A DNA stretch of 64,000 nucleotides. Source: Clytia hemisphaerica (lineage: Eukaryota > Cnidaria > Hydrozoa > Leptothecata > Clytiidae). Each line of letters starts with the position of its first letter. The first letter of the stretch is position 1. The translations under genes and the position numbers were made by a program. This document shows, piece after piece, positions 1,421 through 64,000 of this stretch. Where the stretch lies: assembly GCA_902728285.1 (NCBI GenBank), contig CACVBU010000693.1, positions 280,600 to 344,599 on the forward strand. Direction: 5' to 3'. The notes beneath the pieces were generated by a model, which saw nothing but the letters and a program-made list of their open reading frames with translations, made no database searches and was not told the DNA's origin.

Positions 1421-14980
<13,560 letters not shown>

Positions 14981-15749
14981 TTTGATCTTATTTAATCTGA
15001 AAAAAGTATATTATTTCAAACTACATAGATATATTAGCATAACTGAAACAAAAGGCATCTTTCCTTGTCTGTATGCATTCCCTATAATCAAATTTGATAC
15101 AGAAAATGCGCTTCCATACAATGGGATCGGCCTCTTTCTAAGGAACTGTCAAATAATGAAGAACCTACACTTTTTATTATTATGCAGCTGTTGTATACAT
15201 TTGAATATAATTCTATGTAACTCCTCCACATTGCTCCACATTAAAGGAAATAGATTTGGATAAAAAGTTACCTATAAGCATTAGTTATTTAGTATCATGC
15301 TTTAGATACTACTTAGCATGCATGTTTTGTGATTTATTTTCTACTTTTGACTTTTGTCGGAACATCTCAGTTTTTTCCAGGCATTTCTGCTTAAAGTAGT
15401 CCATTTTTTCCAGACATTTGGTGAAAAATGCAAGACAAAGTTTCTTTTTTGTAACAAAAATATATAACCTAGGTTACTGTATCTAGGGATTGGAAAATGC
15501 CATTGAATTGAAATTTTGACAAGTATTAGGTATTGATAATACAAGCTTGCAGCCAAAATTTCAGCAAACTCAAACTAGCAGTTGTGCTGGAAGTGAGCAG
15601 GTGGCCGAACTAAAATTTTGCAAATCATCTCCAATCATATCCATATACCGCTGGTCAAAATCTTGAAATTTTAATCTTTAAATATTTACAGTAAATTTCA
15701 CCCCAAGATTTTTCCCCAAAAAGAAATATGAAGATGCTAGAAGATAGAC
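14981..15749. other. Upstream region of katanin
   Basis: Minus-strand 5' flank. A likely 5' UTR intron acceptor is at 14997-14998. I could not place the upstream non-coding exon or a core promoter. No other gene is seen. Confidence 0.35.
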
Positions 15750-32700: not shown

Positions 32701-35700
32701 TTCCCTACAAAAAGTATGTGTACTTAAAGTAATGTACTTAAAAATAAAAATTCATTGGCTTTCAAAATCTGCTCCTCAGATTTTCGCTTAGGCTCTGGGG
32801 GCCATGTATATTTTCCAAATTGAATATTTCAAAATATTTCAAATTATTGCCATTGGATTTTTTTGCCCCAGGGCCCAGTCCCATTCAGTTTTGATTCTCG
32901 TTTCTTTTGCTATATTTTTCAAATGCGATTGTTTTGATTTACAGCTGCCATCTTTATAGCATAATAACAAAGCTGTTCTCATGTGTGTGCGCTTCCTGCA
33001 CTAGCATAGATAAGGTAAAACCTCAGGATAAGAGTAAACAAACATGGTACCATGGTTTCAGCCCACTTTTCTGGTGCCCCCATTGAAGCATGGTGCCCCC
33101 AACGAGTTAGGTCCCCTTGAAAAATTGCTTTGAGTTAGGTACCCCTATTCAGCAGATAATTTCTTTGAATTGACACTTACTTTTGATACTTTTGATGGGT
33201 TTTTTGAGTCTCTCAATCATCCAATTTGGAAATCCGATGATAAACCATTTCTCTCGCACTGTTTGAATTCGCTCTCCTGTAGGGATAATAATTCGGGAGC
33301 AGTGGTTCGTCCGGCAGTGTGGAAAGAAAAAGGTCAAGTTGTTTTTTAAATTTAAAATTTTTGTGCAGTTTGTGATATTACGAATGTAGAATGGGAGAGA
33401 ATTGAAAAGCTTAGGTCCTTCTTCAGATAGTGAGCCTCTCCAAATGTTTTTCTGTTTAGAATTTACTTCTTTAAGGTGGCATTTTCATCTGAGCCTCTGG
33501 TTTTCGTAGCAGGTGATACCCCCTTTGTTCTCAGAGTGGTTGAAATTTGGAGAATATTTTTCTAAGATATACCAAGTATAGATGATTTGATATCTTTCTC
33601 TACGTCTTTCCAGACTGTATAGTTTTAGAGTTTTAAGTTTTTCCCAATAGTTCAGTTTTTGTAAAGAGAATATTCCATTTAGGAATGATTTTTGAAGCTG
33701 TTCTAGTCGTTGCATTTGGTGTCTCTTGGATGGTGACCATAGCTGTGAACAGTAATCAATGTGAGGGACTGCCAATGTCTTCCATAGGGTCAGCATTACA
33801 GTAGGGTCCCTTGTTTTGAAAGTCTGATATATCCATGAACTGATGCCTTGACTTTGTCGATTACATTTTCTATATGATTGTCATATGTCATACCCACATC
33901 TAAAGTGATCCCAAGGTCTTTGACTGTAGTCTTGGTCTCTATCACCTTTTGGGTACCAGAGAAGTATTCATTTCTACTATAATTGAGATGTTCAAATTTA
34001 AGTCCATTCAATTTCAGATTATTCAATCCAGTCCATTCATAGACTGTGTTCATGTCATCTTGGAGCTGAATGATATCAGCATGGTTTTTGATTTCTTTCA
34101 TTAGACGTGTATCATCAGCAAATGATGATAAGAAAGAGTGTAATATCTTTTTGTCAATATCTTGTATCATTATCAGAAACAGTAGAATTGATACTTTTTG
34201 TTCTTTTGTCATTCCAAAAATCTTAAATGAATCTTAGTGAAACAGAGCCAAAAAAAATTATCTGCTGAATGGACTTAACTCAAAGCAATTTCTCAAGGGG
34301 ACCTAACTCGTTGGGGGCACCTGAAAAGACGTTGTGTGAAAAATTTATTTTGGAGCTAAACAAACACATTTTGCCTGCGAGGGGTTGGGCAAGTTGGTTT
34401 TCAGATTTTAACTCTACTTGGCTATCTTCTAGGCTATTACTTTAAAAGTACACTGTTAGATTTCAGTGGATTGCACTATTGCTCGAGGAATGAAGGATTT
34501 CAAAAATTTAGGCTACCAATCCACCAACCCATTTTTAAAGCTTCTAGGAACGAACCAAGCAAACAATAGACCTTATCGGAGTTTTTAATTTTTCTAAAAA
34601 AGCGATGCATTGTGGGATTGTTTCGAGTGTATTAATTACAATAGAATTCCCTCGAGGAATTCCTAAGAGATTTCTATTGTAATACACTCGAAACAATCCC
34701 ACAATGCATTGCTTTTTTAGAAAAATTAAAAACTCCGATAAGGTCTATTGGGCCTGTCCTATGGAGTAGTGCCACTATTGGGGTGCCACTTTCAGAATGT
34801 CAAAAAATAGGTAGAAAATTAAGCTTAAGATCATTTTTCCTAAGTTCTTTTTTATTAAACCATAGGAAAGGGAGGTAAAAATAGAAGAAGAGGAAAGAAT
34901 GAGAACGAAACTGAAAAGAGAGAATTGGTCTTCAAAGAAGAAGGACAAGAATATGCACAAGTTCTTAAAATGTTGGGAAACGGTCGTCTAGATGCCATGT
35001 GTTTTGATGGTACAAAAAGGTTATGCCATATCCGGGGAAAACTGAGGAAGAAAGTTTGGATCAACACAGGTGACATCATTTTGTTGGGCTTGAGAGATTA
35101 CCAGGTAAGAATTTCAGAAACAAAAAAGTCAAACATTTTAAACTTTGTATGCACATCAAATTCTGTTCATTAAAAAATAGACACGCGGGTTTTGCTGATG
35201 TTTTTTTTTCCATACCGCAAAAAATACCCACATCAAAGTGCTTTTATCAAGGTAGGGAAACCTGCCGATCCGTAACTATTTTAACCTTCCCTCCTTAGGA
35301 CAATAAAGCTGATGTTATCTTGAAATATACACCAGACGAAGCTAGAAACTTGAAAACATACGGCGAATTGCCTGATAATGGTATGTTAATTTTGCATGTT
35401 TCCTTCTGATTTTTTGCTCTTCTATTTTTGGACCTACCTCGGAGGTCCTTTAAATTAACCTCTGTTCGTTCGTTTGTTTGTTCGTTCGTCTACTATTACT
35501 ACTTGCTTTTCTCGGGATCTGCCTATTAATTTTTTCTGATGTAAAACGAGAGTACCCAAAAAGTATATATTAAAATAAAAACTTGTTTAACATCTTTTTA
35601 GTCTCATTTTGTACTATTGCAGGGGGGGTCAACATTTATAATACCAACCCATAGCCCAAAAACCTGACTTTTGACCGTTTGAGCTAAGTTAACACCACCA

Positions 35701-38502: not shown

Positions 38503-40100
38503 TCATGTTTTGACAAATTGTAATGTGATTGTTGCATAACCGGTATCGCCATTGATTATTTTTCGTCCGTCTGCTTGAAATATATCCTTCGCAATGAAAC
38601 TTTGTCCATTGAAATCTCCCAAAACATTACTTGTTTTGGTTTCAAAGTCATACTCTTGAATTGCTCCATCAAATGTAATCAATTCTAATTCACTCGTTGT
38701 GAAGCTCTTCTTCTCTTTAAACTGGTGGTTGATCTGAACTGTGTGAACGTTACCTACAATGATGCTAAGGAATGATAGCTGAGGAACGGACCAAATTGTG
38801 ATATTTTGGTTTACCGGTAAACTTCCGATATTTAAGACGAAACTACCGTGATATTCACACATTCTTCCAGTATCACTTGTACAAATCATCTCCAATGTAC
38901 CAATGAGATTATAGTTTACTAAAAAGGAAAAGAATATCTTCAGTGTATATAAATAACGAAATATTACTCAATAGCACACTGCTATGCAAACGTCATAATT
39001 ATTACTTTTAACATTTGACCGAAATTCAATCCCACAATCCTTTTCATCTTGATTCGTAATGCGTGCAAGTTATTACTTTTGTATTGTCCATAAGTGTAAT
39101 TGACTTGCAAAAGCAATTAATGCAAAGGATGATGGGATTAAAACTCGGACAAAATGTAATTTTGATGTCTATTTTTAGAATCACTGCGGTATGCTATTCA
39201 AAAGTAGTCATAATTTTTTGGCAAAATGACAAAAAATGCATCAACATATTGGGCATAGGACCTTAGTTAGCAAAATTTTCTCGGGCGGAATATTATAAAA
39301 AATGGCAACACTAGGGTATATATTTTGGACTAAGAAAACCGTACAACTCAACTAAGATACCGATACATCATAATATCTTTGATATTCATTTTACCTGTCT
39401 TATCTTCCATTTCGTCACCAACAATGGAAACCTAAACATTAAAATACAAGAAATAGATAATAGATTGTTACACAAGATGATGTTAATACCTAAACATTTT
39501 TCTTTATAGTCAGGCAGAATTAGGTTTTTACTTTGAAAAATAGTATATGGCTGAAATTTATGGCACAGAGGCTCCTTATCGGAAACGTTCGGTAAAACGC
39601 ACATAGGTCATAGTCGTTATAAAAAAACCCGGTCTGGCAATGTTTGATTGTTTTAGCTTTTTGTTCAATTTTCTTTTGTTACAAACAAAAGGGCTACATG
39701 GTGTAGGGTACGATTTTGAAAGCCATAATTCTGGTAGCACATGCCATCGTTTAGAAATTGAGTGCCCCCGGGGGGGGGGGGGGCTGGACACGGCGCATTA
39801 CAGAAAAATATTTACGTAGTTATGTACCTTCTTGAATATGGTCCCGGTTTTTGATTCGTTCGAGCTCTGTTCTTCAAACTTTCCAAAACAATAACATTTC
39901 TTTTCCTCAGTATATAAAGGTGTTTTCTCCAACCTTTGACATCGTAAAATACATTCCACTGTGGACCGTGCATCTTCAACAAAAACTGTGTTGTTTAAAG
40001 ATGCAGTAACTTGTTGACCTTCGTACAAACAACAATGACTTAACTTCGACAAAAAAAGTAATAAAATGACGATGTGTATTCGGAAGAAAAGCTTTTCCAT
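38503..40100 (-). CDS. Secreted PAN/apple-like protein, paralog A
   Basis: Unrecognised secreted protein. Exons: 40100-39828, 39431-39395, 38918-38503 (GT-AG, phases 0 and 1), giving 241 aa. Residues 1-23 are a signal peptide (hydrophobic run IVILLLFL). Next comes CCLYEGQQVTASLNN, then VECILRC and KKCYCF, a spacing that recalls a short PAN/apple module. Exon 2 adds only about 12 residues of acidic linker. Exon 3 is a beta-rich domain opening with IGTLEMICTSD..CEYHGSF and ending GYATITLQF. It is the most diverged of the three in exon 3, although its exon 1 is nearly identical to that of paralog C. It is the last gene of a head-to-tail minus-strand array. Function unknown; extracellular location is inferred. 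Confidence 0.85.
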
Positions 40101-41163
40101 CTTTCACGCTTTTTTGTTAAAGTTTAGATACTTTCCAATAATTTTTTGTATTGCTCTTCACAAATTTACCCAAAGAAATAAAATCAAAATCGTACCCTTT
40201 TTTAATTTTTACTCTCTACGAGTTAGAAAATTAAATCAGTGCCAATCAATGTAAACCCCATTCAGCTATTTATTATAAATTCATCGACGACAAATTTAAC
40301 AGTTTCTCGCAGTTTTGATATCCAAGTTTGATACAAATATTATTTCTTGTTATAAAAAAACAGGTACCAATTTCCAATTAATAAATCCTCTCATATTTTC
40401 ATTATTAGTTAGAAATACCTCAGCGGCTATTGATAAATAAATGAAAATGAAATGTCTGCTTTTTGTTAAATATCTAATTTTAATTAATTATTGGAATATT
40501 GTATTTATCGGGACTTTTGTTTTTCGGGAAGAAATTTATAAATTTACTATAATTACGCACCTAAACTCTATGGGACAATTTCTTTTGAGGAGGAGAGTGA
40601 TTTTGTGCAATGTCTTTAAAATGGCAAATTTTATGTAGGATTTATATCTTGCGGATTGTCGTCTGAAAGAATTATAATTAACATAAGTGTTCCCGTTTCA
40701 TACCAGACACATGTTTCATATCAGGACTCCCTATTGTTATATTGTGCTGAATGAATGAATGCTCCACATCCGTGTCAATTTTATGCGAAAAAACTTTTAA
40801 ATTAAAATTGATGAGTAAGTAAACAATATCACTCTCATTTAAAAACAAAACCTTTAAATGGTGATTCCAGCTCTCAATGAGAAAGGCTGAAATTTTCACG
40901 TGACTAATAAATTTGCGAGTTCTTCTTGTCCAATTAAAATGCACTTTTGCATCACGTGGCGGAAAAATATTGAAAATTATCATATAGAGTGGCCATTCCG
41001 TTTTACTTATAGGATATGAGCGCATTATAGAATAAGAGAGCAAAAAATCCATAGGGGTTATATCGAAATGAATAATTCTATTCGATTCGCATCCAGCCCA
41101 ATGAACTTATTTATAACCGTCTAACAATGGTAAAAGAATTCAAACGTAAACTCTTTTTCATTA

Positions 41164-41541
41164 GAGGTGTAGTAGTGTAGTGGTTATCGTATCTGAGAGG
41201 TCAGGGTTCGATTCTCACTCGGTGCTATGATTCGCTCGGCAAGTGAATATACCTTCGCCCGGGTCGACGCATGCCTTGTGAGGGGGACTGGGTACCGTCA
41301 ATCTGATAAAAGAGTATGGGAGTATGCCAGTATTGCTTGTGGTGTGGTGACGATATTCAACACCTGCGAAGTGTAGTTCGAGTATCATCGTATATACACA
41401 AAAAACTCTGTCGTGTCGCGAGCACAAAGTGAGCAGTGTCTGGTATAAGCGTGGTAATTTCCCTATCCTAGGGTAGGTATCTATCCAGGAAAGGGCCCAT
41501 TCCGGGTGATTCGGAGGGTTCACTTCTCTTCTCTCTTTCTC
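41164..41541 (+). mobile_element. tRNA-derived SINE
   Basis: The head contains a pol III A box (TAGTGTAGTGG, 41173-41183) and B box (GGTTCGATTCT, 41205-41215) at tRNA-like spacing. It is followed by a 300-bp non-tRNA body and a (TCTC)n tail. TTTTCATTA occurs at 41155-41163 and 41542-41550, a 9-bp target duplication. The head is too degenerate and the body too long for a functional tRNA gene. It sits between paralogs A and B. Confidence 0.85.
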
Positions 41542-41689
41542 TTTTCATTAAAACAGAGTGGATAATACAAATCTTAGTTAGTCCTAAAGTGCGACGCTGT
41601 CCCCGTATTAGGTTTGTAGGTACTGCGAACTCTTGCTAATTCTAACTTCTATTTTTTGAAGTTGAAGGGAACTTCAATAAAGCCATCGA

Positions 41690-41778
41690 CATCCTTTGAC
41701 ATCATAAAATACATTCCACTGTGGACCGTGCACCTTCAACGGGAAATTTCACCATTTAAAGATGCTGTAACATTCAGT
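41690..41778 (-). pseudogene. Broken exon 1 fragment of a fourth tandem paralog
   Basis: About 85 bases match exon 1 of paralogs A and C (the stretch coding VTASLN to VECIL), including TACATTCCACTGTGGACCGT. A frameshift separates the two halves, and the CGA codon after VECIL has become TGA. The signal-peptide and CYC ends are missing, and no exon 3 counterpart was found nearby. It lies just beyond the SINE. Confidence 0.8.
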
Positions 41779-42483
41779 GACCTAGATCACTGGGTTTAGG
41801 GTATGCTTTATTGATGATACTCTATATTAAAGTTCTCTACTTCATAACCTTCAAACCTGAAATATACACTCTTAAGGATAATTTCTAATATCCAATATTA
41901 ATGCGGAATAAATTTATACTAGCGACCCCCGAAAGATATTAGGTTTTGCGGAATAAATTAATGTGGATAGGCTGTCGTTTTAAGGGATTGTGCGGAATTA
42001 ATTAATGCGAAATAGCGTTTCAAATGATTTTTTTCTTTTTCAAGGAAAAGCACAAACTAGAAAATTTCAAACAAAATACAAACCAAACGTGTCATAATGT
42101 ATTCCCTTAAAGTAAGTTTGTTTGGTAAATAAGGTTTGTTTGCCATGGGATCAAAAAAAATTACTCTTTCTGTTAAATACAATTTTCAAAAATTCTTCTT
42201 TTCTGCTTTGTTTCCAATAGGGAGAACACGACATGGATTTTATCATTGCAGTGATTTTGCACCCCTTCCTGGGACCCATAAAAATGCACCGCTCAACGCA
42301 GCGGCGGCACATCTCTGTACCCTTTTCGCCTAAAAGACCACCTTGCTGGGCTTCGCATGAAATAGTCCTTGGTCTTGCCAATTAAGCTAAACAACTTGAA
42401 ATGAAATGTCCAACAATTCTTTCATCTAATTCGAGCGTTTCTTAGTTCAAAATCTATAACCATGCACCAAACGAAAACCATTT
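41779..42483. other. Spacer downstream of paralog B
   Basis: AT-rich spacer. Around 41900-42030 a short motif, GCGGAATAAATTAATG-like, repeats three times with variation. Probable 3' UTR of paralog B. No gene seen. Confidence 0.35.
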
Positions 42484-44546
42484 TTAAACTCTAATAATCT
42501 TAACTGTCACTTCAGCATAAGCGTCGGTCTTAGAAACTTTCTTTGTTTGGGATTTACCGAAAATGTTTTTCACAGCAAAAAGTTGCCCACTTAGATCAGC
42601 GATCAAATCAAAACCATTGGAGTCCCATTCTTTGATTTGTCCATCGAGTACCACATACTTATCAACATCCGTCGCAAAACTTTCATATTCGTTAAAGATT
42701 GCTGAGAAAGGGAGGGCAAAGGGTAATGACATTTGTTTACTGATCCTTTGCGAACCGCTTCTTGACCACACTTCAATGTTTTGATTTTCAGGACGATTTC
42801 CGATCTCAAATTTTAGATTGCCATAAAATTCACAGTTAGTGTCTTCATCTGTTCCGCAAAACATGCTTAAGGTTCCTCTGATTTGATAAGACACTGTTAA
42901 ATATAGAATGAATAAATAATCACATCACTTTAATCTCAATTTCATGATAGATTTGGTTAGCTCAAAGACATTCAATTAATTTATCCGCCATCTTGAAGTT
43001 TGACCAATTTTTGGAAAAGAAACTGTTGTGGGGGATCTATTTTAAGACAAGGGGTTTTTATTTCTATACCTTGTGGGGGCGTTCACTAGCCTATACTAGA
43101 CAGCACCCGCGTTTTTTCTACGGAATTCATGTCTTAACCTGTTAGACAAAAACCAAATTTGTGGCTATTTGTGGTTTGTGGCTAATGTCTACTCCACTTT
43201 ATGACTTTTTCGAAAGTTTATAGACCGGGCTTTCGGCTCTAAATATTCGATATTTTGACGTTACTTTTAGCTTTCAAAGCTCATGCAGTAGTGAAAAATG
43301 CGAATTTGCGTTAAAGCACTTGAAAGGCTTATATTTTTCGGAAAATTGTCAAAGTGGAACTCACTAAGAAACGGAATAAAGAATCTCGGTTTTAGGTGAG
43401 GTGCCCGCTAGGCGTTCACAAACATACCCCTTGATCGAGGGACGTTTCAACTGCAGTCGGCTCAATTTCACTTAGTTCGAAAAACAATGGTGTTTCATGA
43501 CCAGTTATTTTCTAATGAATTTTTCATTTGGAGCCTTAAAGAAGGCTGTCGTCAAAAAAGAGGTGGAAGGTAATGGCCATTTAAAGTAAAATGCTTACCA
43601 AGTTGATCTACATATGGGACGGTGGAGGGCGTGATTTTAGTATTGTTAGCGGTTCCTTCTTCAGCATTTGTCACCTAAAAAACGAAAAGAAAATGCACAA
43701 ACGGTATTATCTCTTTTCTAATAAACAGCTTTTTACTCCGGTGGGTGTCAACGAAAAACTTGCGAAAGTTGTAAAATTGTTTCTTAAAAACTCAAGTCAG
43801 TTTGTTGACCAAATTTTTTTGCAAGTTCCCATAAGAAATTAGTGAGACTATCCTTTGAGAAAAAGAAGTAAAAGAAGTCTAGGGATTCAATAAAGTCTAA
43901 AATATCGAAAATATGAATATCGTGATGTACAGTATGTCAGGGGGGTCCAATGGCTGAGTAATTTATCCTTGAGGGTGAAAATGGAAATATTTTATCACCA
44001 GGAGGCTTTGTGATATACCTTAAGTGAAGAAATTTTGGCGGATTTGAAAATTTGAAAATTTCTTTTTTCCACCATCCGCCAAGTTTGATTCCCTCTGAAA
44101 CTCACAGTCCACCAAATTTAATACCCTCTGAAAAAACTTTTTGCGCCATCCGCCAGATTATAAATTCCCGCCAAAATTTCTTTCCTTAAAATACATATTC
44201 AGAATATCAGATTTCAACTTATCATAGGGGTATGGCTCGACAATTTTTTCAATATTTACAATTTATTTACCTTCTTAAAAATGGTACCGTTGACTGAAGT
44301 GTTGTCACTGTTGTGTTGGATACTATCCAAACAATAACATTCCTTATTCTCACCATAGAAAGGTGTTTTCTTTAAACTTTTACATTCTAAAATACATTCC
44401 ACTGCTGAACTTACAGACTCAATAGAAATTGCGTTGTTTAAAGATGTTTCAACTTGTTGCGATTCGTATAAACAACAAAATGATTGATAAATGAAGCAAA
44501 GTAAAATACTACTAGAAAGTAACATGAAATTAATTTTCAAATCCAT
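42484..44546 (-). CDS. Secreted PAN/apple-like protein, paralog B
   Basis: Second member of the tandem family. Exons: 44546-44271, 43674-43599, 42893-42484 (GT-AG, same phases as A and C), giving 253 aa. I start at the ATG at 44546 because it opens directly into the signal peptide (FMLLSSSILLCFIYQSF). The upstream in-frame ATG at 44633 would add 29 polar residues. Exon 1 keeps CCLYESQQVETSLNN, VECILECKSLKKTPFY and KECYCLD but is clearly diverged from A and C. Exon 2 encodes a 25-residue T/P/N-rich linker with a possible N-glycosylation site. Exon 3 (GTLSMFCGTD..CEFYGNL, NEYESFATD, VVLDGQIKEWDS, DLIADLSGQ) is closest to paralog C. No known catalytic motif is seen. Confidence 0.85.
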
Positions 44547-45167
44547 TTGGAGCTTTCCATCGACAGTTCTTATACGTGTAGCTGTTTTAGGATCAAAGTT
44601 AAACTGAAAATTCACTCCAAAAATATAATTCATATGCTAATTTGATTAACTGGGACCTAACATTCAATATTTACTCAAGCCATAAGATTGATTAAATTGA
44701 CTTTCACGAAAAGATAGGAAAAAATTTGGGTTTCTAATTAACATCCAGTAGGGATTTCTTAAATTTCTAATTAAACTGTTCAAAAGGTAGCAATTTCTCC
44801 CTTACATTAAACTGTCCGTGAATGGCCGGGAAAGAAGACTTTGCCAAAATGATATCAAAGTATTGTGATTGCATTGAGGATCTCATTCCTCGACATTTAC
44901 AAGATAAAAATAGAACCTCCACAAAAAAAAGACATGCCTCTTTTATATAAGAGCCAGTAAAGCCCCCAAAAAATTTTGACTCAGACAGGGCTCTTAAATT
45001 TTTTTGAAATCTTCAGGTATAACTCTTTCATGACGGCCCAGCTAATTTCCTTCAATTTGGAACGATACTTTTGGCTGCCGTAATTTTTGTTAGGATTTAA
45101 TTTAAAACTCTGGCACACTGAAAAGATAGAGCATAAAAAGAGCTCTCCAACGAACCCAAACATGGCC

Positions 45168-45440
45168 TACACGCTTTTTTTTTTATAAGAATGGTGTAAA
45201 TCCATTTCATCATGGATATTCTTAACTTTTTTGGGAAAATCATCCTAAAATATGCTTACAGCATTCTTATTACTTGGGGGTAATTGGTAATTTATAATTT
45301 AAAATGCTCTAAAAATGACATTCTTTGCTTGAGTAGCAAAATTCCATGATGGTGATATTCTTAGCATATTCTTAATTTTTTGGCCATTTTCATCATGGAC
45401 ATTCTTATAAAGTGTATTCTTATAAAAAAAAAAGCGTGTA
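45168..45440. mobile_element. Foldback MITE with TA duplication (mariner-like)
   Basis: CACGCTTTTTTTTTTATAAG and its inverse form the ends. TACACGC/GCGTGTA implies a TA target. Inner arms with CATCATGGA(T/C)ATTCTTA also pair. 273 bp, between paralogs B and C. Confidence 0.6.
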
Positions 45441-45862
45441 TTTAGATTGCTCCAAAACTGAGATAATTGCATCTGAAGTTGTAACTTCTAAAAACGATTT
45501 TTTTGATTTTCGTTGCCCTGAAAGAGTTAATGTTCTTAAAATGTTCTTGATTCTGATTATCAGACGTCTGTATATTTTTCGAGCCTTTACAGATAAAAAT
45601 TTGGCGGGAAATACTAAAATAGCTATTAACCCATGTGTATAACGGTTTTCATTTTTCTATATTCTTGATTAAGTCTTTGTCTCGTTTAGTTTCTTCTTAT
45701 ATATTCTCTAGAGCTGAGCCTCAGATTGCTCTTAATTTGTTTTTAGATTTTAGTCAATTTTCAACCTTGCGTTTTTGCAAAAGTATTCTTATATATAAAA
45801 AAGCGTGTAACATTTATCTATATAAATAAAAAAGATTGATCTGAAATTAACTAAGCATATCA

Positions 45863-48815
45863 TCACTTGGCAGCCCTATTTATTCTCAAACCCACTTCGG
45901 CATAATCACCGTTGCTTTGAGTCACTTTTTTTGTTTTGAAAGTACCAAACAAATCCGTCACAGCGAGAAGTTCTCCATCAAAATCAGCAATCAAGTCATC
46001 ACTTCCACTGTCAGATTCTTTAATCATACCATCCAATACAATGAATTCATTTGGATCGGTCACGTAACTTTCGTATTCATCAAAACTATGAACAAAAGTT
46101 ACAACCCAGGGCCGACCTACAGGTTGTCTTGAAAACTTGTTTTGAGCCAATGACCATAATTGAATATTTTGGTTTTGAGGCAATCGACCGATACTTAACA
46201 AGAAGTTTCCATAGTATTCACAATTGTTGTTTGGATCACTTGTACACATCATCGATAAAGTACCAATCATTGAGTATCGGACTATTATAAAATACGAAAG
46301 TATACCAGTTGTCATTTAGTGAAAACATTTTTCTAAAAAAACCTCTGATTATGGAATTGTCATTCTAATCTAGCGTTTTCCACCCGGAGGGTACTACCCT
46401 TTCCATCAACCGACGGGGGTGCTCCACTGAGATTCGAAAAATAGACCATACGTGGGACTCGTTTTTTCAGAAAACTTTCCGGAATTTGCGAAAAAAATAA
46501 AGTCTGAATGGGACTGAAATTCCAAAATTTTCTCTAATTTTCTACTTTTTATCCAAATTTTCCAAAAAAGGCGAGGGACCTATTTTTCTATTTTGATGTT
46601 TTTGTGACCCTACCGGCCCCTACCTGGGACTTGCGGAGGTTGAAAAAGGTACCCTGACCAGCGGCGCATCCCCGTAACCCATTTTGCCCAAGTACCCCCT
46701 GGGTTTCCAGGCATCCTAAAGTACCCTATAAAGGTCGAGGTGAAAGAAAGTGCACTATAATTGTGTAAAAAAGTGAGAATAACAAAGTTTTTTGGACTAA
46801 ATTTCTGAAAATCTGACTGAATTATTTGCCTTATATATGTAATGGACAAAGATTTTCAAGGAAATGCACGGGTCATGCAAAAGGGTAAATTTTCACCGAA
46901 ATTTAAACAAATTTGGCTAGATTGTCTGCACTGTATTTTTAAAAGCCTAATTTTCGGTAAGTGTAGTCGGAGTCATTAAGAAAGCAATTTAACAATAAGT
47001 CCCAACGAATCAGACTAAAAAACTGCATTAAAGATCTGAGACAGGGGCTTCTCTTCATGTTGGTACGGTGGGTAGTTGATCCCGTCCCCAGGACTGTTGC
47101 TATTGATTGGCCAGAGTGGTAACGCGCTTAGTTTCTTGTCTTTAAAGCTTTTAGGCATGGTTTATACAAGTATTTTACACCCTCTTCTCACAGACCCACT
47201 GGGATACCGCCCCACTGGAAAAATCGGCTAAAATATTGTCCCCGGTGGGAAATTATACTCCAATTATTGTCCCCACTGAAAATAGACAATCAAATCAATC
47301 CTCACTGCCAAATATGTGCTATTTTCCCCATCCCCACTGAATTTTCTGACTTGAAAACAAAAGAATTTAAATCCCCATAAAAAATATGAGAACATCAATC
47401 CCCATCGAGTTTCAGTTTGTTAATTTATCCCCACTGGCTTAAAAAATCCTCCCGGGTCTGTGAGAAGGGGGTGTGATTTCGGATAAAAGCGTTATAAAGA
47501 AGTATACTGTAAAAAAGCTGTTAATATTTGTTTTACCTATTGGATTTGGTTTGGCTGGTTCAAAATCTGTTTCTCCCTCACCAAATTTTACCTGGAAAAT
47601 AAAAAATAAATTAATAGAAAGTCAACCATAAGGGTGGGTTGGTGTACGGGGTTTGCGATTTCCGAGATATCGAATAATTTTGCCAAAATTTCCGAAATTC
47701 TGTAAAAAAATACTTGCAATTCCGATACCGATTCTTTTGGGTATTTTTCCTCGTTTTGGCTAATTTTCATCAAATTTGATTTTTCATGTATGAATTCTGA
47801 AAAAGGGGGATAAAAACTTATAATACCGAAATTTCGAAGCAAAAATTCATGGATTTCCGATACCGAAGCAATTTTAGAATTCCGAAATACCGAAGGAATT
47901 TTGCCCAATTTCCGAAATTCCGAAGAAAAAAGTGTCGATTTCCGCAATTCCGAAATACCGTACGCCGCCACCATAAGTTGTATAAATCTTCGTGGCGTTC
48001 AAGGTCTCAAATGACTAGATACGTTTACAAGTCTAGACACACCAAAATTATGAGTGCAATTAAAAAAAGACAAAAGTTTTGGAAGGACATACTATTAATT
48101 ATCTTGATTTTAGGGCAAAAACATCCCAGAAATCAAGTTAAGTTAATTAAAAACATTTAAAATTACAGTTACAAATGCTCTAAAAATACACCCCTGTCTC
48201 ACAGCCCGGTGGAACTTTTTCCTCAGTGGGGATAGAAATTCCTATTGAAATCCCAATGGAGATAAAAATTATAATGTTCCAAGGTTGAAAAATCCAATGG
48301 GAATGGTTTTGGAGCGCGATTTTTAAACATCGAATTTCGAATGGGGAAGAAATCAAAGTCAATTTCCCAGTGAGTCTGAAATTAAAGGGTTTTCTTCCCA
48401 TCGGGGAAAAAATTTTTGCCAAACTTTCCAGTGGGGCTTGGGTCCCAGTGAGTCTGTGACACAGGGGTGTAAAAATGGCATTGAAGAACGCTTACAGACA
48501 AAAAAAAATCAAAATGCTAGGAAATCTAACCTTTTCAAATATTCTACCCGTTTTAGTAGTGTTTGTGGAATTATGTATTGTTGGATGTCCATTGAAGCAA
48601 AAACATTTCTTTTCTTCAGTGTATAAAGGTGTTTTCTTCAACCTTTGACATCGTAAAATACATTCCACTGATGACCGTGCATTTTCAACAGAAACTGTGT
48701 TGTTTAAAGATGCAGTAACTTGTTGACCTTCGTATAAACAACAAAATGTTTGAAGAAATGAACACGATAGCAAGAAAAAAATCAAGAAAAATTCTATGGT
48801 TTTTCCTTGAGGCAT
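45863..48815 (-). CDS. Secreted PAN/apple-like protein, paralog C
   Basis: First gene of the tandem array in transcription order. Exons: 48815-48531, 47591-47537, 46281-45863 (GT-AG, phases 0 and 1), giving 252 aa. The signal peptide is residues 1-24 (FFLIFFLLSCSFL). It is followed by CCLYEGQQVTASLNNTVSVE, VECILRCQRLKKTPLY and KKCFCFNG, almost the same as paralog A. Exon 2 encodes an 18-residue linker (FGEGETDFEPAKPNPI). Exon 3 (GTLSMMCTSD..CEYYGNF, DEYESYVTD, IVLDGMIKESDS, DLIADFDGELLAV) matches paralog B better than A. Intron 1 contains two MITEs and intron 2 one more. Family function is unknown; extracellular secretion is inferred from the signal peptide and cysteines. Confidence 0.86.
47177..47474. 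mobile_element. ACACCC-ended MITE, copy 1
   Basis: ACACCCTCTTCTCACAGACC and its inverse form the ends. The body is rich in CCCCACTG/CAGTGGGG motifs. It shares the ends and the ACTTGAAAACAAAAGAATTT block with 63209-63512 (inverted). In paralog C intron 2. Confidence 0.75.
47633..47972. mobile_element. MITE made of TTCCGAAAT-type repeats, ATAAG duplication
   Basis: GGTGGGTTGGTGTACGG and CCGTACGCCGCCACC form imperfect inverted ends, flanked by ATAAG at 47628-47632 and 47973-47977. The interior is a run of variants of ATTCCGAAATACCGAA. In intron 1 of paralog C. Confidence 0.65.
48188..48470. mobile_element. ACACCC-ended MITE, copy 2
   Basis: ACACCCCTGTCTCACAG and CTGTGACACAGGGGTGT are the ends. 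The flanks AAAAAT on both sides may be a target duplication. It is more diverged from copies 1 and 3 but has the same CAGTGGGG/CCCAGTGAGTCTGTG layout. In intron 1 of paralog C. Confidence 0.7.
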
Positions 48816-49104: not shown

Positions 49105-50325
49105 AACTGTTGTTTAATTTTTAAGAACTAATAAACAAAGGTAATATCACCGTCTATCAAAAGTTATTTATTGGATTCTTTAAGCAAATGCTTATATAAG
49201 AAAAATGAATATGCTCATATTGTGCGCCATCTCTTGTTTATTTTGTAAGAGCTAATTACCGAAAGGTATATTACCGTCTATCAAGAGTTATTGATTTGAT
49301 TCTTATAAAGTAAATGCTTATAAGAAAAATAAATATGCTCATAATGAATGTGCGCCGTCCCTCGATTACTTTGTAAAAACTAATTACCGAAAGGTATATC
49401 ACCGTCTATCGAGAGTTATTGATTTGATTCTTATAAAGTAAATGCTTATAAGAAAAATAAGTAAGCTCATATTGTGCGCCATCCCTTGTTTACTTTGTAA
49501 GAACTAATTACCGAAAGGTATATTACCGTCTATCAAGAGTTATTGATTTGATTCTTATAAAGTGTATGCTTATAAGAAAAATAAGTCAGCTCATATTGTG
49601 CGCCATCCCTTGTTTACTTTGTAAGAACTAATTACCGAAAGGTGTATTACCGTCTATCAAGAAATATTAATTTGATTCTTATAAAGTAAATGCTTATAAG
49701 AAAAATAAATGAGCTCACATTGTGCCTCCGTTCCTTGTTTACTTTGGAACAACTAATTACCGAAAACTATATCACCGTCTATCAAGAGTTATTGATTTGA
49801 TTCTTATAAAGTAAATGCTTATAAGAAAAATAAGTAAGCTCATATTGTGCGCCATCCCTTGTTTACTTTGTAAGAACTAATTACCGAAAGGTATATTACC
49901 GTCTATAAAGAGTTATTGATTTGATTCTTATAAAGTATATGCTTATAAGAAAAATAAATATGCTCATATTGTGCGCCATCCCTTGTTTACTTTGTAAGAA
50001 CTAATTACCGAAAGGTATATCACCGTCTATCAAGAGTTATTGATTTGATTCTTATAAAGTATATGCTTATAAGAAAAATAAATATGCTCATATTGTGCGC
50101 CATACTTTGTTTACTTTGTAAGAACTAATTACCGAAAGGTATATCACCGTCTATCAAGAGTTATTGATTTGATTCTTATAAAGTATATGCTTATAAGAAA
50201 AATAAATACGCTCATATTGTGCGCCATACTTTGTTTACTTTGTAAGAACTAATTACCGAAAGGTATATTACTGCCTATCAAGAGTTATTGATTTGATTCT
50301 TATAAAGTATATGCTTATAAGAGAA
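49105..50325. repeat. Tandem satellite, about 124 bp x 10
   Basis: The anchor ACCGTCTATCA (or a close variant) recurs at about 49149, 49273, 49401, 49524, 49649, 49774, 49898, 50022, 50146 and 50270, a period of 122-128 bp. Each unit has TTGTTTACTTTGTAAGAACT, AATTACCGAAAGGTATAT, TTGATTTGATTCTTATAAAG and ATGCTTATAAGAAAAATAA, then GCTCATATTGTGCGCCAT. The first unit is the most diverged. No ORF runs through it. Confidence 0.9.
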
Positions 50326-52212
50326 TAAAGAAAAAATCAAAACTGTGGAGCTAAAGACAGAAAGATATATGACGTAATCCAAAGAAAACCCAGGAAAATC
50401 GTCCGTGGTTATACGAGCGTGTAATTTGTAAATTAAATTTAGTGAGTTGGTCCACCGTATCAAGCACTTTCGTTTTCTAATTTTTTTTCCGATGACACCG
50501 CCGCCGCGAAAGGCTATTGTAATACTTTCGCTAAGCGAAATTAACAAATCTCGAACTTTCAAAATGAAAACCATTCGTTACCTTTATCTAAACTAATTGA
50601 AAAGTGAAAAATCGAGTTCACAAGAAAAGTTCCCTATTAATGGTCTACTACTGTCAAAGTCCCCTATAAAGAATTTGTTAACAAACAGTGTTTGAAGATA
50701 ATCATCAAAAAATTTGTCACAAAAATTATGTGTAGAGACACAATATCACCACATTCAAGGTTTTCAAGGTAAAAGAAGGCGAGGGAAGGAAGCAAAGTCT
50801 CTAGACTGGACATTCCAAAAACCGGCTGAAATTTTGGGCAGGCGTTGAAAGTCAGGGAAGTGAAGTGACGCCCAATAAGGTATTCCTGACAGCTTTTAAA
50901 GGAAAATTTATAGCTTTCCAGGTATCTAAGAAATAGTATTTTCAAAAAAAAATTCATAGGGACAAGAAACGAATCTCTATTTTTATCCTAGTGAAGCTGG
51001 AGTTTTATTTTCCACCTTTATTTAGGATTACCTAACAGAAAGACTCTAGATAATTAAAGTCATCTTTAGATAACTAAAGTTATCAAAAAACGTTCGAAAA
51101 ATTGTCTAAAAATCATCCAAAGTAGTTTGTAATCGATATACCGGATTTATGAGAAAAAATCCCATTAAACCCCTGTAAATCAAATCAACTCACGTCAGTT
51201 AAAAATTGGCTGTCATTTGGAAATCCAATTAGCGAGAAGACACCAAATGGTTAGGAATAGTTGATTTGAGTAATGACTTTTAGACAGACATCTTGTTTTG
51301 CGGCAGATTAGTGAGCGATTAAAATCTCTTTAATTGCGTCCGGAACCTTTTATCTTATGACAAGCGGACAGGTTATAAATCATATTAAATAAACCGCCAA
51401 CTAATTGTACAAAATAGGGAACAAATTGTGCTATTAAGGATTTTTTTGTAATTAAAATAGTTCATCTTTTCTTTTCTGGTTTTTAAAAAAGTTTGCTTAC
51501 TCATGCCCTTGAATATTTACGCATGCGCTTTACAGTATCAATTAAAATTACAATCTGTCAAAAGTAGAAAATCTAGTAAATTCATATAATACCGCCTAAG
51601 GAAAAAACGGCCACAACGCTAATTGTAAGGTATTAAGTCAATGGAGTCAATCAGTGGTTAGGAACTGGAGATTCTTTTTGGTAATACTAAAATATTATAA
51701 AACACTGCGGCCATTATTGGCTCTATTGGTCATTGGCTATTTACGTGCTGTGCTTATTGGCAGCAAAAATCTACTAAACGAGGAAATTCAAGATAGATTG
51801 GTTTCTTAAAATTCTATGTTACAAAAAAGAGATTAAAAGTAGTAAAAAATGTTGACCTCGTAATATCTGAGCTCGTAATATCTGAGAGGTCATGAAATAA
51901 AATGCTAAAAGTTGTCTAAAATCTTTACATAAAATGATGTGAAAATACTTACTAGTGTCTTTAAAATGTGTTCGGTGAGCACCACATATGAATAAAATTC
52001 AGTACTAAAAGTGTTTTAAAATCCGGCAATTCTGTAATGTTGTAGAATTATGACGTCATGGTCGAACAAGATAACGTCAGCATTACGTAAGAGTTCGGTT
52101 GGTGTCCATATGAAAGTACATACAAATATCTACTGTGTGAAGCAGCTTTGATAGAAAAAATCCCTTAATAAATGTTTTTGTTTTGGTAATGGTGTGTGTA
52201 AGTGTAGGTATT
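50326..52212. other. Spacer between the satellite and innexin
   Basis: AT-rich spacer that should include the innexin 3' UTR. No exon, RNA gene or clear repeat was identified. Minus-strand frames of about 97 codons at 50278-50574 and 50664-50957 show no recognisable features. Confidence 0.35.
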
Positions 52213-54704
52213 TTACAATTGTGCAACATCGTTTAAGAGTTTTTGACTTGGTCCGTACGGGTTCATTTTTTGATCCTCAGGTGCATATCCGTTGTTGCCC
52301 TGGAAACGATCTAATCTCTCTTCCTTCAATTTGCGGATCAACCGACCGTAGACCGGCAAGTTTTTCTTACGGACATACTCGAGATATTCACATTCCCGTA
52401 AGGTTAAGGATTGGTAGACGCGTCTAGCCTGTGAGCCTTGAGATAAGAAACATGTGATGGTGACTAAATGGTCGACCACTTGCATGATGAATCCAATACA
52501 ACTAACAATCATACCGAAGATGAATAAAAACCACAAGACAATCAAAACGTATTGGTATAAGACATTCTGAGAGATTTCGCAAACGAATTTGTGTGTATTG
52601 AACAAGTGGTGTTTGATATCTTTGCTCAGTTCCAAAACTTCACAGAAACCGAATGTTGGAAGCATGATTTCTCCAGGTCTCAATCGTTTGCGTCCAGCAG
52701 TATAATCATAAGCTTTGCTATTGCTTTGTTTGCTCCAGTTAATCCATTCGGTACCGTATCTTCGGAAGTCACCATTCAACAGGTTGTCCGTTGCAACAAA
52801 GGCAATCACGTTAACGACGAGATAACAAATCTTACAGAAAATGTTCGCAAATAATCTCAATCGCATGCGCATTGGGGGGTTGATCTGGTAGTTGAAGTAA
52901 TTCTTGACAATTCCATCAATGTCTGGTTCGACAGCTTTGATGCTACTTTTCAAACTGATTAGATCTGTGTTGATGTATCGGAACAAGACATAAGGGAGAT
53001 AATAAAGGAAACCAATGACAGCGATGTAGAAGGGAAACCATTGATATTGGAGATAAAAGGTTTTCTCCAATGGCTCACATTGAGCATTTGTTTCAGTTTC
53101 GCAAAGAGCACCATTCATCATACCATCTTCTTTAAGATTTCTTGGGATACCATAATAAGCCATCTTTCCTTGGACCATAGGTAAGTCACGGTAAACGTAG
53201 AAGCCTAATGAAAAGCAAAGAATTGCAAGTTTAATATCATCAAAATACGGACAAGAATGAGTCTAATATGATATTGAGTAATCATCAGATGTGACTGTAC
53301 TGAGGTCTGAGAATGCACAATAGTGTACGTTTACATTCCTTGAAATTCCTTCTCTTGGGATTTTATGGAGGCTTTTAAAGCGTATAAAGGTGGTATTCTC
53401 ATTCAATATCAAATTTTTGAATTTATGATAAATCAAAGATATCTATGAAGATTTGATTTCTCAATGTAATGGTTTTTTTTTCTGGTAAAGGTAAATTACA
53501 AAGAGGAAACCATAACAAACTGTGGTGGTTTAGGAGAAAAGGCTGAGGAAGTGACTATTTAAACGCATACTTTCAAAATGTGCTTTTAATTAAACGAAAT
53601 AGTTGACGCAGAAAAAAGGAAATGACTTTGGAAAGTATAATGATGATAACGTAAAAACAGGAGGAAACGACCAAATTTTCGAGTTCAAGTTTCTACCGCA
53701 TTAGCAGTTAAGAAAATTCTTTTGGCTATCGAGTACTTTGTTAGTTTTAGATGGAGCTTTATTCTGACTATTAACTGAGTCTTTTCATTTTCGGACGAAA
53801 ATTCTCTCGAGAATATTGATTTATTAGTTGTGAATCTTTTTAAAAGAATCGATAAACTGACTTGAATTTTCAGGAAATTTTCTTATAAAAAGAAGGTAAA
53901 TTTTTTCGCTTTACAATACACGCACTTTTGAATGATATAACTGTTTCGGCTGCTCTAAATAATGAATCAATCGTAAGAAAATTCAGTATAGTGTTTACAA
54001 ATTTCGTGCTATTCTTTCTGGCTATTGTTCTTTCATTGATAAATGTTTTATTTAACAAGATTTTTCATCTTCATTTTCAAATTTAAATTTTTAAAGAGCG
54101 TTTTTGAAGAAGTTGCTATGACATTACACCACATGTTTTACCGTTATCTTTCGACATTTTTACAATTTAGCGGAGCAAATAAAATCGTCCGAGAAAAAGC
54201 AAATGTATACATATGTAAAAGCCACTAAACCCCTCATTAAAAAAAATCTTAAAACCTGTTAAAACCACCTATTTGAAAAAATAAACATATGATCAAATGA
54301 CTATCAATTCTTTATCTTATCTCCGCTTAGCTAACCAAACTATTTCCCTTCAAATCTTATTCCTTGTGAATTTAAAATTGAGACAAAAAACTGCTACACA
54401 TTCATCTACTGAAAATCTGGTAAATTTCAGAGATAAAAGCACCAAAGTCTAAACACAGTGTAAACAATAAATCATATATACCTTGAATCCAGCAAGCTTC
54501 ATGGACATATCCTTTGTCAATACCAGCAGTGCCAGGGATGACGCATGTCATTGTATCTTTGAACCAATTCAACCCTAACAGCATGCTGGAGACCATTGCC
54601 ATTTTGACCATGAAAATACGGTTAAATTGATCAGTTAGCGAATCATGACGGGCCTTAAATTTGATCTGTAGCAGACCTTTGATACTTCCAGTGATCATCG
54701 ACAT
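52213..54704 (-). CDS. Innexin (gap junction/hemichannel subunit)
   Basis: Four-pass membrane protein of invertebrate gap junctions. Exons: 54704-54482 and 53204-52213, with a GT-AG intron at phase 1 splitting the CWIQ-G motif, giving 404 aa. Transmembrane segments lie near residues 33-49, 131-152 (after the family motif YQW-F-P), 193-215 and 294-319. Extracellular loop 1 has C54 and C71 as expected, plus an extra pair C109 and C117. Loop 2 has C262 and C283, followed by ISQNVLYQYVLIVLWF, the counterpart of the usual INLFNEKI-FLWFW. The C-terminal tail is cytoplasmic. A good acceptor at 54716-54717 just above the ATG suggests a 5' UTR intron. Which innexin ortholog this is cannot be told without comparison. 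Confidence 0.93.
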
Positions 54705-54717
54705 TTTGGTGGTTGCT

Positions 54718-55692
54718 GAGAGTTATATATCGACAAATCCAAGTTTTTGATTTTTTTGAAGAGAAGCGTCTCTCTTCTACTATTTCACACACGCAACCCC
54801 CTTTTGCGTTTCGTGTTACGACGTTTACACACACTGTTTGTGTATGTGCTCACCTGCCTTCTTTGCTGAATGGTTTTTTGGACACTTTAATTTTTTGCCG
54901 CGATTTTAGAGGTGCACCGGGTTGGCGAGTTATCTGAAAAAAGAAATAAAATGTCACATTTATTTCAGGGTATTCAATGTAGATACGGAATATGGAATAT
55001 TAAATGTGATATGTGCATTATAGTATTTTTGATTTTCTAATCAATATCTGATGCCATTTATTCATCTAAACTACGAGTTGGAAACCCAAACCCTCTAAGA
55101 TTATGTTAAAAAGAAACGGTAGAAGAATTTTAAAGCTTGATTTCTAACTTGGTAAAAATATTAAGAAACGCGCTAAAACTTTAAAAAGACCATGAAAGTA
55201 GACGTAAACTAAAGAAATATATAACAAAAAACTTTTAAACCCATTCATTTGGAATTTATAGTAAAGTTAAAGATACAAAAAGAAAGAAAGAAAGAAAGAA
55301 AGAGAAATATTAAAATCATGATTTAAAAACTCGATTTAAAACAACGTAATTACATTCAAATATTACTCAGGAGATTCAACAGAGAAAAAAAACTCGTCAA
55401 AAGTCTTTTCATTTGTACACGTGTAGAAAAGCCACTTTTAAATGGATTTAAAAGGATTGAATGATACCAAATATCGAAACCTCTGACATGATACGGAATT
55501 TTAAAAGGATCGAGAAAAGATTGTTTCATAATCATAAATAAAGGTAACCTCAAAATTCAAACAAAGGGCGTGCAGATAACTTATAATCTTGAATGGTACG
55601 ATTAGATTTTCGAATACCAAGCAATTGTAAATCAACCAACCTCAAAAGTTTGTAAACCATACTATTTGTTTAATTGGTCATTTTTGAGAATG
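54718..55692. other. Upstream region of innexin
   Basis: Probable 5' UTR intron and promoter region of the innexin gene. A (GAAA)n microsatellite is at about 55280-55304. The non-coding first exon could not be placed. Confidence 0.35.
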
Positions 55693-63208: not shown

Positions 63209-63512
63209 ACACCCCCAGCTCACAAATCCGGTAAGATTTTTTCAGCCAGTGGGGATGAAAATGACGGACTGAAACTCGATGGGGATTGGTATTCCCGTAT
63301 TTTTAATGGCTTGGGATTTTAATTCTTTTGTTTTCAAGTCAGAAAGTTCAATGGGGACGGGAAGAAAATCATCATATTTTGCAGTGAGGATTGGCTTATC
63401 TGATTATTTTCAGTGGGGGCAAAAATTGGAGGATAATTTTCCACCGGGGACGATACTTTGGACGATTTCTCCAGTGGGAAGGGTTCCCAGTGGGCCTGTG
63501 AGAACGGGGTGT
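63209..63512. mobile_element. ACACCC-ended MITE, copy 3
   Basis: ACACCCCCAGCTCACAAATCC and GGGCCTGTGAGAACGGGGTGT form the ends. It matches copy 1 (47177-47474) in inverted orientation, with the block AATTCTTTTGTTTTCAAGTC and repeated CAGTGGGG motifs. Confidence 0.75.
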
Positions 63513-64000
63513 AGTTTAGAAATGGGCAAAATTTATTACTAGTCTATGGTCGATGTTATTCCCAACATTTTCTGAACGTTCAAAAAATGAACTCTGTAAA
63601 TTCTCTATATATTTTCTCACAGAAAACAACGAACGGTCGAAGGTTTATGTAACCTCAGGAAGCAGTGCTTTTCTTTTCAATCAAAAAAGAGAAAAGTATC
63701 GGTAATTAGTCTGGATTACAAATAGCAAATGACTTTTGTAATTAAAAGATAATATTGACCGTACAAATTGGATAATAATGGATCAAGAGTATTGGACGTC
63801 CTTTGAACGTCTTTCAAAGGTCACAGGAAGGACATTCAATTACTTTTTCAGACATGCTTTAATATCATCATGCTGCGTAGAGTGAAAACAAAGTTGGAGT
63901 TCGAAAGGGTATAAAAGGGTTTAATATATCAATACAGAGTTCTGTTCATCTTTTTGTTCGAGATTAAGAAGAAGCAATATTTAAGGAGTACAGACTAACG
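63513..64000. other. Right edge, unassigned
   Basis: No supported feature. A short inverted pair, GGACGTCCTTTGAACG / CTTTCAAAGG, lies near 63795-63820. Confidence 0.25.

Follow-up and report, generated by a model that had tools for sequence, protein, structure and literature searches.

Regional gene conversion as such is well known (PMC1852091, PMC8860441, PMC2955719). In fugu protocadherins it is regional and lineage-specific (PMC1852091), among protocadherins just one particular ectodomain is homogenized, and the dependence of conversion on sequence similarity is established (PMC3966226). The present analysis concerns a 64,000-nucleotide stretch from the hydrozoan Clytia hemisphaerica (the window, C480:280600-344599; host genome searched, 417 Mb in 951 contigs) and suggests that a comparable process has acted on three neighboring genes for predicted secreted proteins, A, B, and C. 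Specifically, gene conversion restricted to the N-terminal module, operating cluster by cluster, is the best account of this locus and its paralogues, and we assign it a probability of roughly 0.78.

The three genes lie head-to-tail on the minus strand, each with three exons and GT-AG introns in phase 0 and then phase 1; the original prediction, made from the sequence alone, had described the head-to-tail order, the three exons, and the shared intron phases. Each encodes, in order, a hydrophobic N-terminus (predicted signal peptide), a cysteine module, a short variable linker, and a C-terminal domain of 136-139 residues. Their exons, in window coordinates and with the evidence for each, are:

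39828..40100, minus strand: gene A exon 1 (signal peptide, cysteine module, linker); open reading frame (ORF), donor GT, phase 0
39395..39431, minus strand: gene A exon 2; splice sites, phase 0/1
38503..38918, minus strand: gene A exon 3 (C-terminal domain and stop); splice sites, phase, profile match
44271..44546, minus strand: gene B exon 1; splice sites, phase
43599..43674, minus strand: gene B exon 2; splice sites, phase
42484..42893, minus strand: gene B exon 3; splice sites, phase, profile match
48531..48815, minus strand: gene C exon 1; splice sites, phase
47537..47591, minus strand: gene C exon 2; splice sites, phase
45863..46281, minus strand: gene C exon 3; splice sites, phase, profile match

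In all three genes, exon 1 contains a sharply bounded island in which synonymous divergence is low, and a decayed piece of it lies between A and B:

39886..40035, minus strand: homogenized tract in A; 93.3% identical to C over 150 bp, edges by stepwise identity
44329..44478, minus strand: homogenized tract in B; about 78% identical to A and C, proportion of synonymous sites that differ (pS) 0.21-0.24
48595..48744, minus strand: homogenized tract in C; 93.3% identical to A, edges by stepwise identity
41690..41771, minus strand: decayed tract fragment of 82 bp; 83% identical to A, 80% to C, and 73% to B, with a stop and a 1-bp gap

The codon alignment of the tract has 11 differences in 150 columns between A and C, and 33 in 150 for each of A-B and B-C. 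In ungapped 15-base steps, A and C agree at 12-15 of 15 positions inside the tract and at 2-7 of 15 outside it. Both edges fall within exon 1, and the tract, lying outside the signal-peptide segment, is the cysteine module alone; the original prediction had included the signal peptide. Over the 50 codons, A and C differ at 6.0 of 31.3 synonymous and 5.0 of 118.7 nonsynonymous sites. The resulting pS of 0.19 is matched by 0.21 for A-B and 0.24 for B-C (A-C versus B-C, Fisher p 0.76), whereas nonsynonymous divergence is 0.04 for A-C and 0.21-0.22 for the pairs with B (A-C versus B-C, p 7e-5). In exon 3, by comparison, pS is 0.68-0.78 for the same pairs (A-C, 0.68-0.69), and outside the tract it is 0.73-0.77; the contrast between tract and exon 3 has a permutation p of 2e-4 in each of the three pairs and Fisher p values of 2e-6 to 8e-8. 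Because pS is low in all three pairs and nonsynonymous divergence is high only with B, all three tracts are young relative to the genes, and B differs mainly through the many amino-acid changes that it has gained. The near-identity of A and C first reported for exon 1 therefore stands for these 150 bp, but its synonymous component was overstated, and B, distinct in its amino acids, carries the same young tract at synonymous sites. The contrast of A and C with B had been seen at the amino-acid level and taken for an exchange between A and C only.

The remainder of the genes serves as a control. The signal peptide, both exon-1 flanks, and intron 1 have diverged on a par with exon 3, and 9 comparisons of intron and 5'-flank sequence among the three genes gave no match. 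These data already contradict a scenario in which A and C duplicated recently, B is older, and exon 3 alone then diverged fast. Such a history would fit the closeness of A and C in exon 1 and their weak pairing in the exon-3 tree, but exon-3 synonymous sites are saturated between them, and the introns, flanks, and signal peptide, which selection on the protein does not accelerate, fail to align; we regard it as barely credible. A dispersed-repeat origin of the tract was likewise rejected, because a DNA search of the genome with it gave just 7 matches, every one in contigs C480 or C276. The same genome-wide search placed the decayed fragment, an A/C-type piece, between A and B without remaining gene parts. 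Repeats of other kinds adjoin gene C: a tandem array with a period of ~124 bp (49110-50332) lies immediately upstream of the gene, and a dispersed repeat (47176-47474 and 63209-63513; 82% over 305 bp, inverted) has its first copy in intron 2, upstream of exon 3.

The same pattern recurs in further clusters. Exon 1 of C has 30 genome matches at E<=0.001 and 60 at E<=1, and exon 3 of C has 19 at E<=0.001; no relatives were confirmed in viral and prokaryote contigs. In genes D1-D3 of contig C276, module pS is 0.05-0.13 against 0.70-0.77 in exon 3, and in genes E1/E2/E4 of contig C8 it is 0.26-0.31 against 0.71-0.87. When the C8 block is trimmed to its own edges, E2/E3/E4/E33 have a pS of 0.03-0.13, with exon 3 at 0.76-0.89 except for E2/E3 (0.14), a recent whole-gene pair whose alignment extends over 1416 bp at 88%. 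Within clusters, permutation tests of module versus exon 3 were significant in all 15 pairs tested (p 2e-4 to 4e-4), a set that omits E3 (the whole-gene duplicate of E2), G5 (on another contig), E33, and E41, and that includes genes with a PAN-type module, described below, for which the first 237 nt of the module only were used, a segment selected after the break in gene D6 had been noticed. Across these pairs, where both genes encode the same degenerate residue, they also use the same codon with a frequency of 0.84-0.98 in the module, compared with 0.31-0.59 in exon 3. On C8, the block is common to copies that lie on opposite strands (E4 versus E2/E3, pS 0.03-0.07; exon 3, 0.89), which favors conversion over unequal crossing-over. 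A mosaic of E39 and E41 was considered and discarded. MaxChi on 100 C8 exon-1 triplets reached its floor (p 5e-4) in 10, of which 9 contained E41, but an insertion in E41 near the block end, seen in the nucleotide alignment, made the codon alignment faulty there, and the residual E41 differences look private; since the remaining floor-level triplet (E4 against E41 and E1) also contains E41, no mosaic is claimed in this cluster. Contigs C203 and C672 carry equally scoring C2 matches whose order is mirrored, as though two alleles had been assembled separately. Paralogues paired across different contigs could in some cases be allelic; A, B, and C share one contig, as do D1-D3. At C276:192072-192521 and 193421-193870, two exon-3 copies with 99.3% amino-acid identity stand under one exon 1, possibly an alternative last exon or a fresh duplication.

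Genes D6-D9 (C276) and G5 (contig C925) carry the same C-terminal domain behind a different, PAN-like module. This PAN-type module has 35 matches in the genome and in C276 scores 19.2 bits against PAN_1 (PF00024; E 0.0011), below the cut-off of 21.4. We take the segment after its PAN-like part to resemble the start of a fibrinogen domain, for which the Pfam scan gave no profile match, and an ORF beside the cluster (C276:183405-183926, plus strand), presumably a PAN domain followed by a fibrinogen domain, is a possible source of the module. The first exon of D6 is a mosaic: it differs from D7-D9 at 12-17 of 237 positions in the PAN part and at 52-53 of 120 after it, and from G5 at 43 of 237 in the former and 30 of 120 in the latter, G5 being closest there. 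With the break set by eye at the domain edge, its diagnostic sites divide 34:4 and then 12:34 (MaxChi p 5e-5, the floor of 20,000 shuffles); over the whole PAN module, pS between D6 and D7-D9 is 0.39-0.46. D6 is direct evidence for a recombination edge within a first exon of this family.

One C-terminal domain thus follows two N-terminal modules without detectable sequence similarity (a PAN query run with phmmer against exon-1-type ORFs over the examined genome stretches found none at E<0.01), and therefore at least one swap has occurred. This is what exon shuffling, with recent copies of an exon-1 segment placed before older, diverse exon 2-3 units, would lead one to expect. A shuffled exon would bring its ends along, however, and the divergence of the signal peptide, exon-1 flanks, and intron 1 matches that of exon 3. 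Moreover, the exon-3 tree rejects neither module type as a single group (D1-D3, p 0.21; PAN types, p 0.38), and repeated swapping is therefore not required; shuffling seems a very unlikely explanation.

The original prediction had rested its case on discordant trees, with C joining B in exon 3 and A the outlier, a flip that could not be recovered. Exon-3 amino-acid identity is 46% for B-C, 39% for A-C, and 31% for A-B, but over the first 43 codons C is nearer A at nonsynonymous sites, and B is favored only by the remainder. In a maximum-likelihood tree of exon 3 from A, B, C, and 16 relatives, A, B, and C group together (96/97) without a settled internal order; the tree pairs A with C at 72/53, the branch leading to A (1.37) is longer than those of B and C, and neither B+C (approximately unbiased test, p-AU 0.48) nor A+B (p-AU 0.17) is rejected. 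Exon 1 rejects the pairings B+C (p 0.010) and A+B (p 0.019) and does not reject A+C (p 0.48). The argument first offered for conversion, that one tree cannot explain both exons, consequently fails: exon 3 rejects no pairing, the excess identity of A and C in exon 1 is in amino acids rather than at synonymous sites, and the topologies are not significantly discordant. Because the trees do not prove discordance, the argument rests on the synonymous contrast between tract and exon 3. Of the two processes originally proposed for exon 1, conversion is retained as the best explanation, with B included and with more direct evidence in paralogues (D6), whereas simple unequal exchange does not fit, because there are two edges in one exon and because the C8 copies lie in opposite orientations.

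Several observations weigh against conversion. A GENECONV-like test of the A-C run, while significant on all sites (p 1e-4 to 0.003), is not so on third positions only (p 0.07 and 0.49). No rise in GC is present (third-position GC content, 0.22-0.24 in the tract versus 0.29-0.38 outside), on which ground GC-biased gene conversion was rejected. The exon-1 tree places B with the C276 copies (94/97), apart from A and C, which is unexpected under strict homogenization inside C480. The D6 mosaic, with its break chosen by eye, belongs to the sister module type and lies outside the window. Finally, in several clusters the tract coincides with roughly the same module, a pattern that selection by itself would also produce, and the exon-1 and exon-3 trees are without significant conflict (A+B+C in exon 1, p 0.12; D1-D3 in exon 3, p 0.21). 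These last two points also speak for an explanation without conversion, in which the 150 bp are constrained at the nucleotide level (splicing, RNA structure, or a regulatory site) and synonymous sites evolve slowly. The same codons drift between clusters, however: module codon identity is 0.69-0.81 between C480 and C276 (9 of 9 pairs) and 0.39-0.72 against C8 (7 of 24 possible pairs computed), a decay with inter-cluster distance that makes pure synonymous constraint unlikely. Against A and C, moreover, B differs about as much per nonsynonymous site as per synonymous site (0.21-0.22 versus 0.21-0.24), which is odd for freezing at the DNA level, and a second, independent constraint would be needed for the PAN-type module, while constraint gives no D6 mosaic. 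Codon constraint, which the original prediction had named as its competitor, would on its own leave the decay between clusters unexplained.

Under conversion confined to the N-terminal module, A, B, and C would be old tandem duplicates of one secreted-protein gene. Most of each gene would have diverged to saturation, and neighboring copies would then have repeatedly overwritten the 150 bp still able to pair, the cysteine module. Selection holding the module alike would keep conversion possible, and conversion would in turn erase synonymous differences as well, while the signal peptide, linker, introns, and C-terminal exon would have fallen below the similarity needed and escaped. The genes would end up with a common N-terminal module in front of C-terminal domains that have diversified. 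Both this homology-threshold feedback and any direction of copying are inferred, and the products may be secreted recognition or adhesion proteins with specificity in the C-terminal domain.

The identity of the domains can be approached through weak similarities. The exon-1 module matches WSC (PF01822) at 16.4 bits in B and 13.3 bits in A, with no match in C, against a cut-off of 27.8, and in all three genes it has the core C-x3-C ... C-x-C common with PAN/Apple. Wsc1 and PAN domains have the PAN/Apple fold and two core disulfides in common (PMC9024836). Because of this common fold and the matching C-x3-C / C-x-C cysteines, the exon-1 and PAN-type modules may be variants of a single fold. For the C-terminal domain, no Pfam family rose above cut-off in 16 members, none of which matched Pfam C2 at all, in line with the original failure to recognize a family. 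A 16-sequence exon-3 profile gave weak matches in the PDB (Cry37AA1, E 0.0025; AfAgo-N, 0.003; synaptotagmin-7 C2, 0.085), and Cry37 presumably contains a C2-like sandwich. Alignment of the profile with hhalign to three C2 domains had a probability of 27%. The fold prediction proposed at the outset gave all-beta models, albeit of low quality (mean predicted local distance difference test score, pLDDT, 43 and 51); a C2-like beta-sandwich is a weak lead, not a result. A more doubtful extension would see in the clusters a genome-wide cassette set of secreted recognition proteins, combining at least two kinds of PAN/Apple-fold module, made uniform per cluster by conversion, with one phase-compatible, highly diversified C2-like domain. 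If true, this would amount to a germline system of an invertebrate, with a shared "handle" that is actively homogenized and a "reader" free to vary.

Elsewhere in the window lie katanin p60 exons (9186-15010; MIT domain E 3.2e-24, AAA E 2.4e-5), reverse-transcriptase-like ORFs with a sub-threshold RVT_1 match (33149-34233), and innexin exons on the minus strand (52213-54722; PF00876, E 5.5e-20 and 7.7e-4). We take 41163-41560 to resemble a tRNA-derived short interspersed element, and ARAGORN and Rfam report nothing there; Rfam and tRNA scans of the whole window found nothing.

Keyword searches of the open-access literature gave no paper describing the A-C family, a weak absence, as animal protein databases were not covered. 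Several clusters in one genome allow the limit of conversion to be read within one exon, for which the introns and flanks provide internal controls; the homology-threshold idea, in which selection keeps the module alike, conversion follows, and the rest escapes, becomes testable with population data; and the family points to a secreted protein domain outside Pfam's recognition.

The exon-1 C-x3-C ... C-x-C corresponds to the cysteines of the two core disulfides of PAN/Apple and WSC domains (PMC9024836), but A-C score below the curated cut-offs, and exon 1 of the three genes, which has no cysteine past C-x-C, lacks any equivalent of the two disulfides specific to WSC. Clustered protocadherins are likewise tandem paralogues in which conversion homogenizes one region and the rest diversifies (PMC1852091, PMC3966226); they are, however, membrane adhesion proteins unrelated to A-C, and their genes share constant exons, whereas A-C are separate genes for secreted proteins in which a small N-terminal cysteine module is homogenized. 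In the CEACAM family, conversion also affects the N-terminal extracellular domain of a multigene family, but there the converted domain varies and meets pathogens, whereas in A-C the converted domain is conserved and the other end varies (PMC8860441). The SSSGP genes of the Hessian fly are clustered secreted-protein genes with a homogenized part beside a highly diversified one, for which concerted homogenization has been proposed; in those genes the signal peptide, intron, and untranslated regions are conserved and the mature protein varies, whereas in A-C the signal peptide and introns have diverged and the conserved part is a coding module (PMC2955719).

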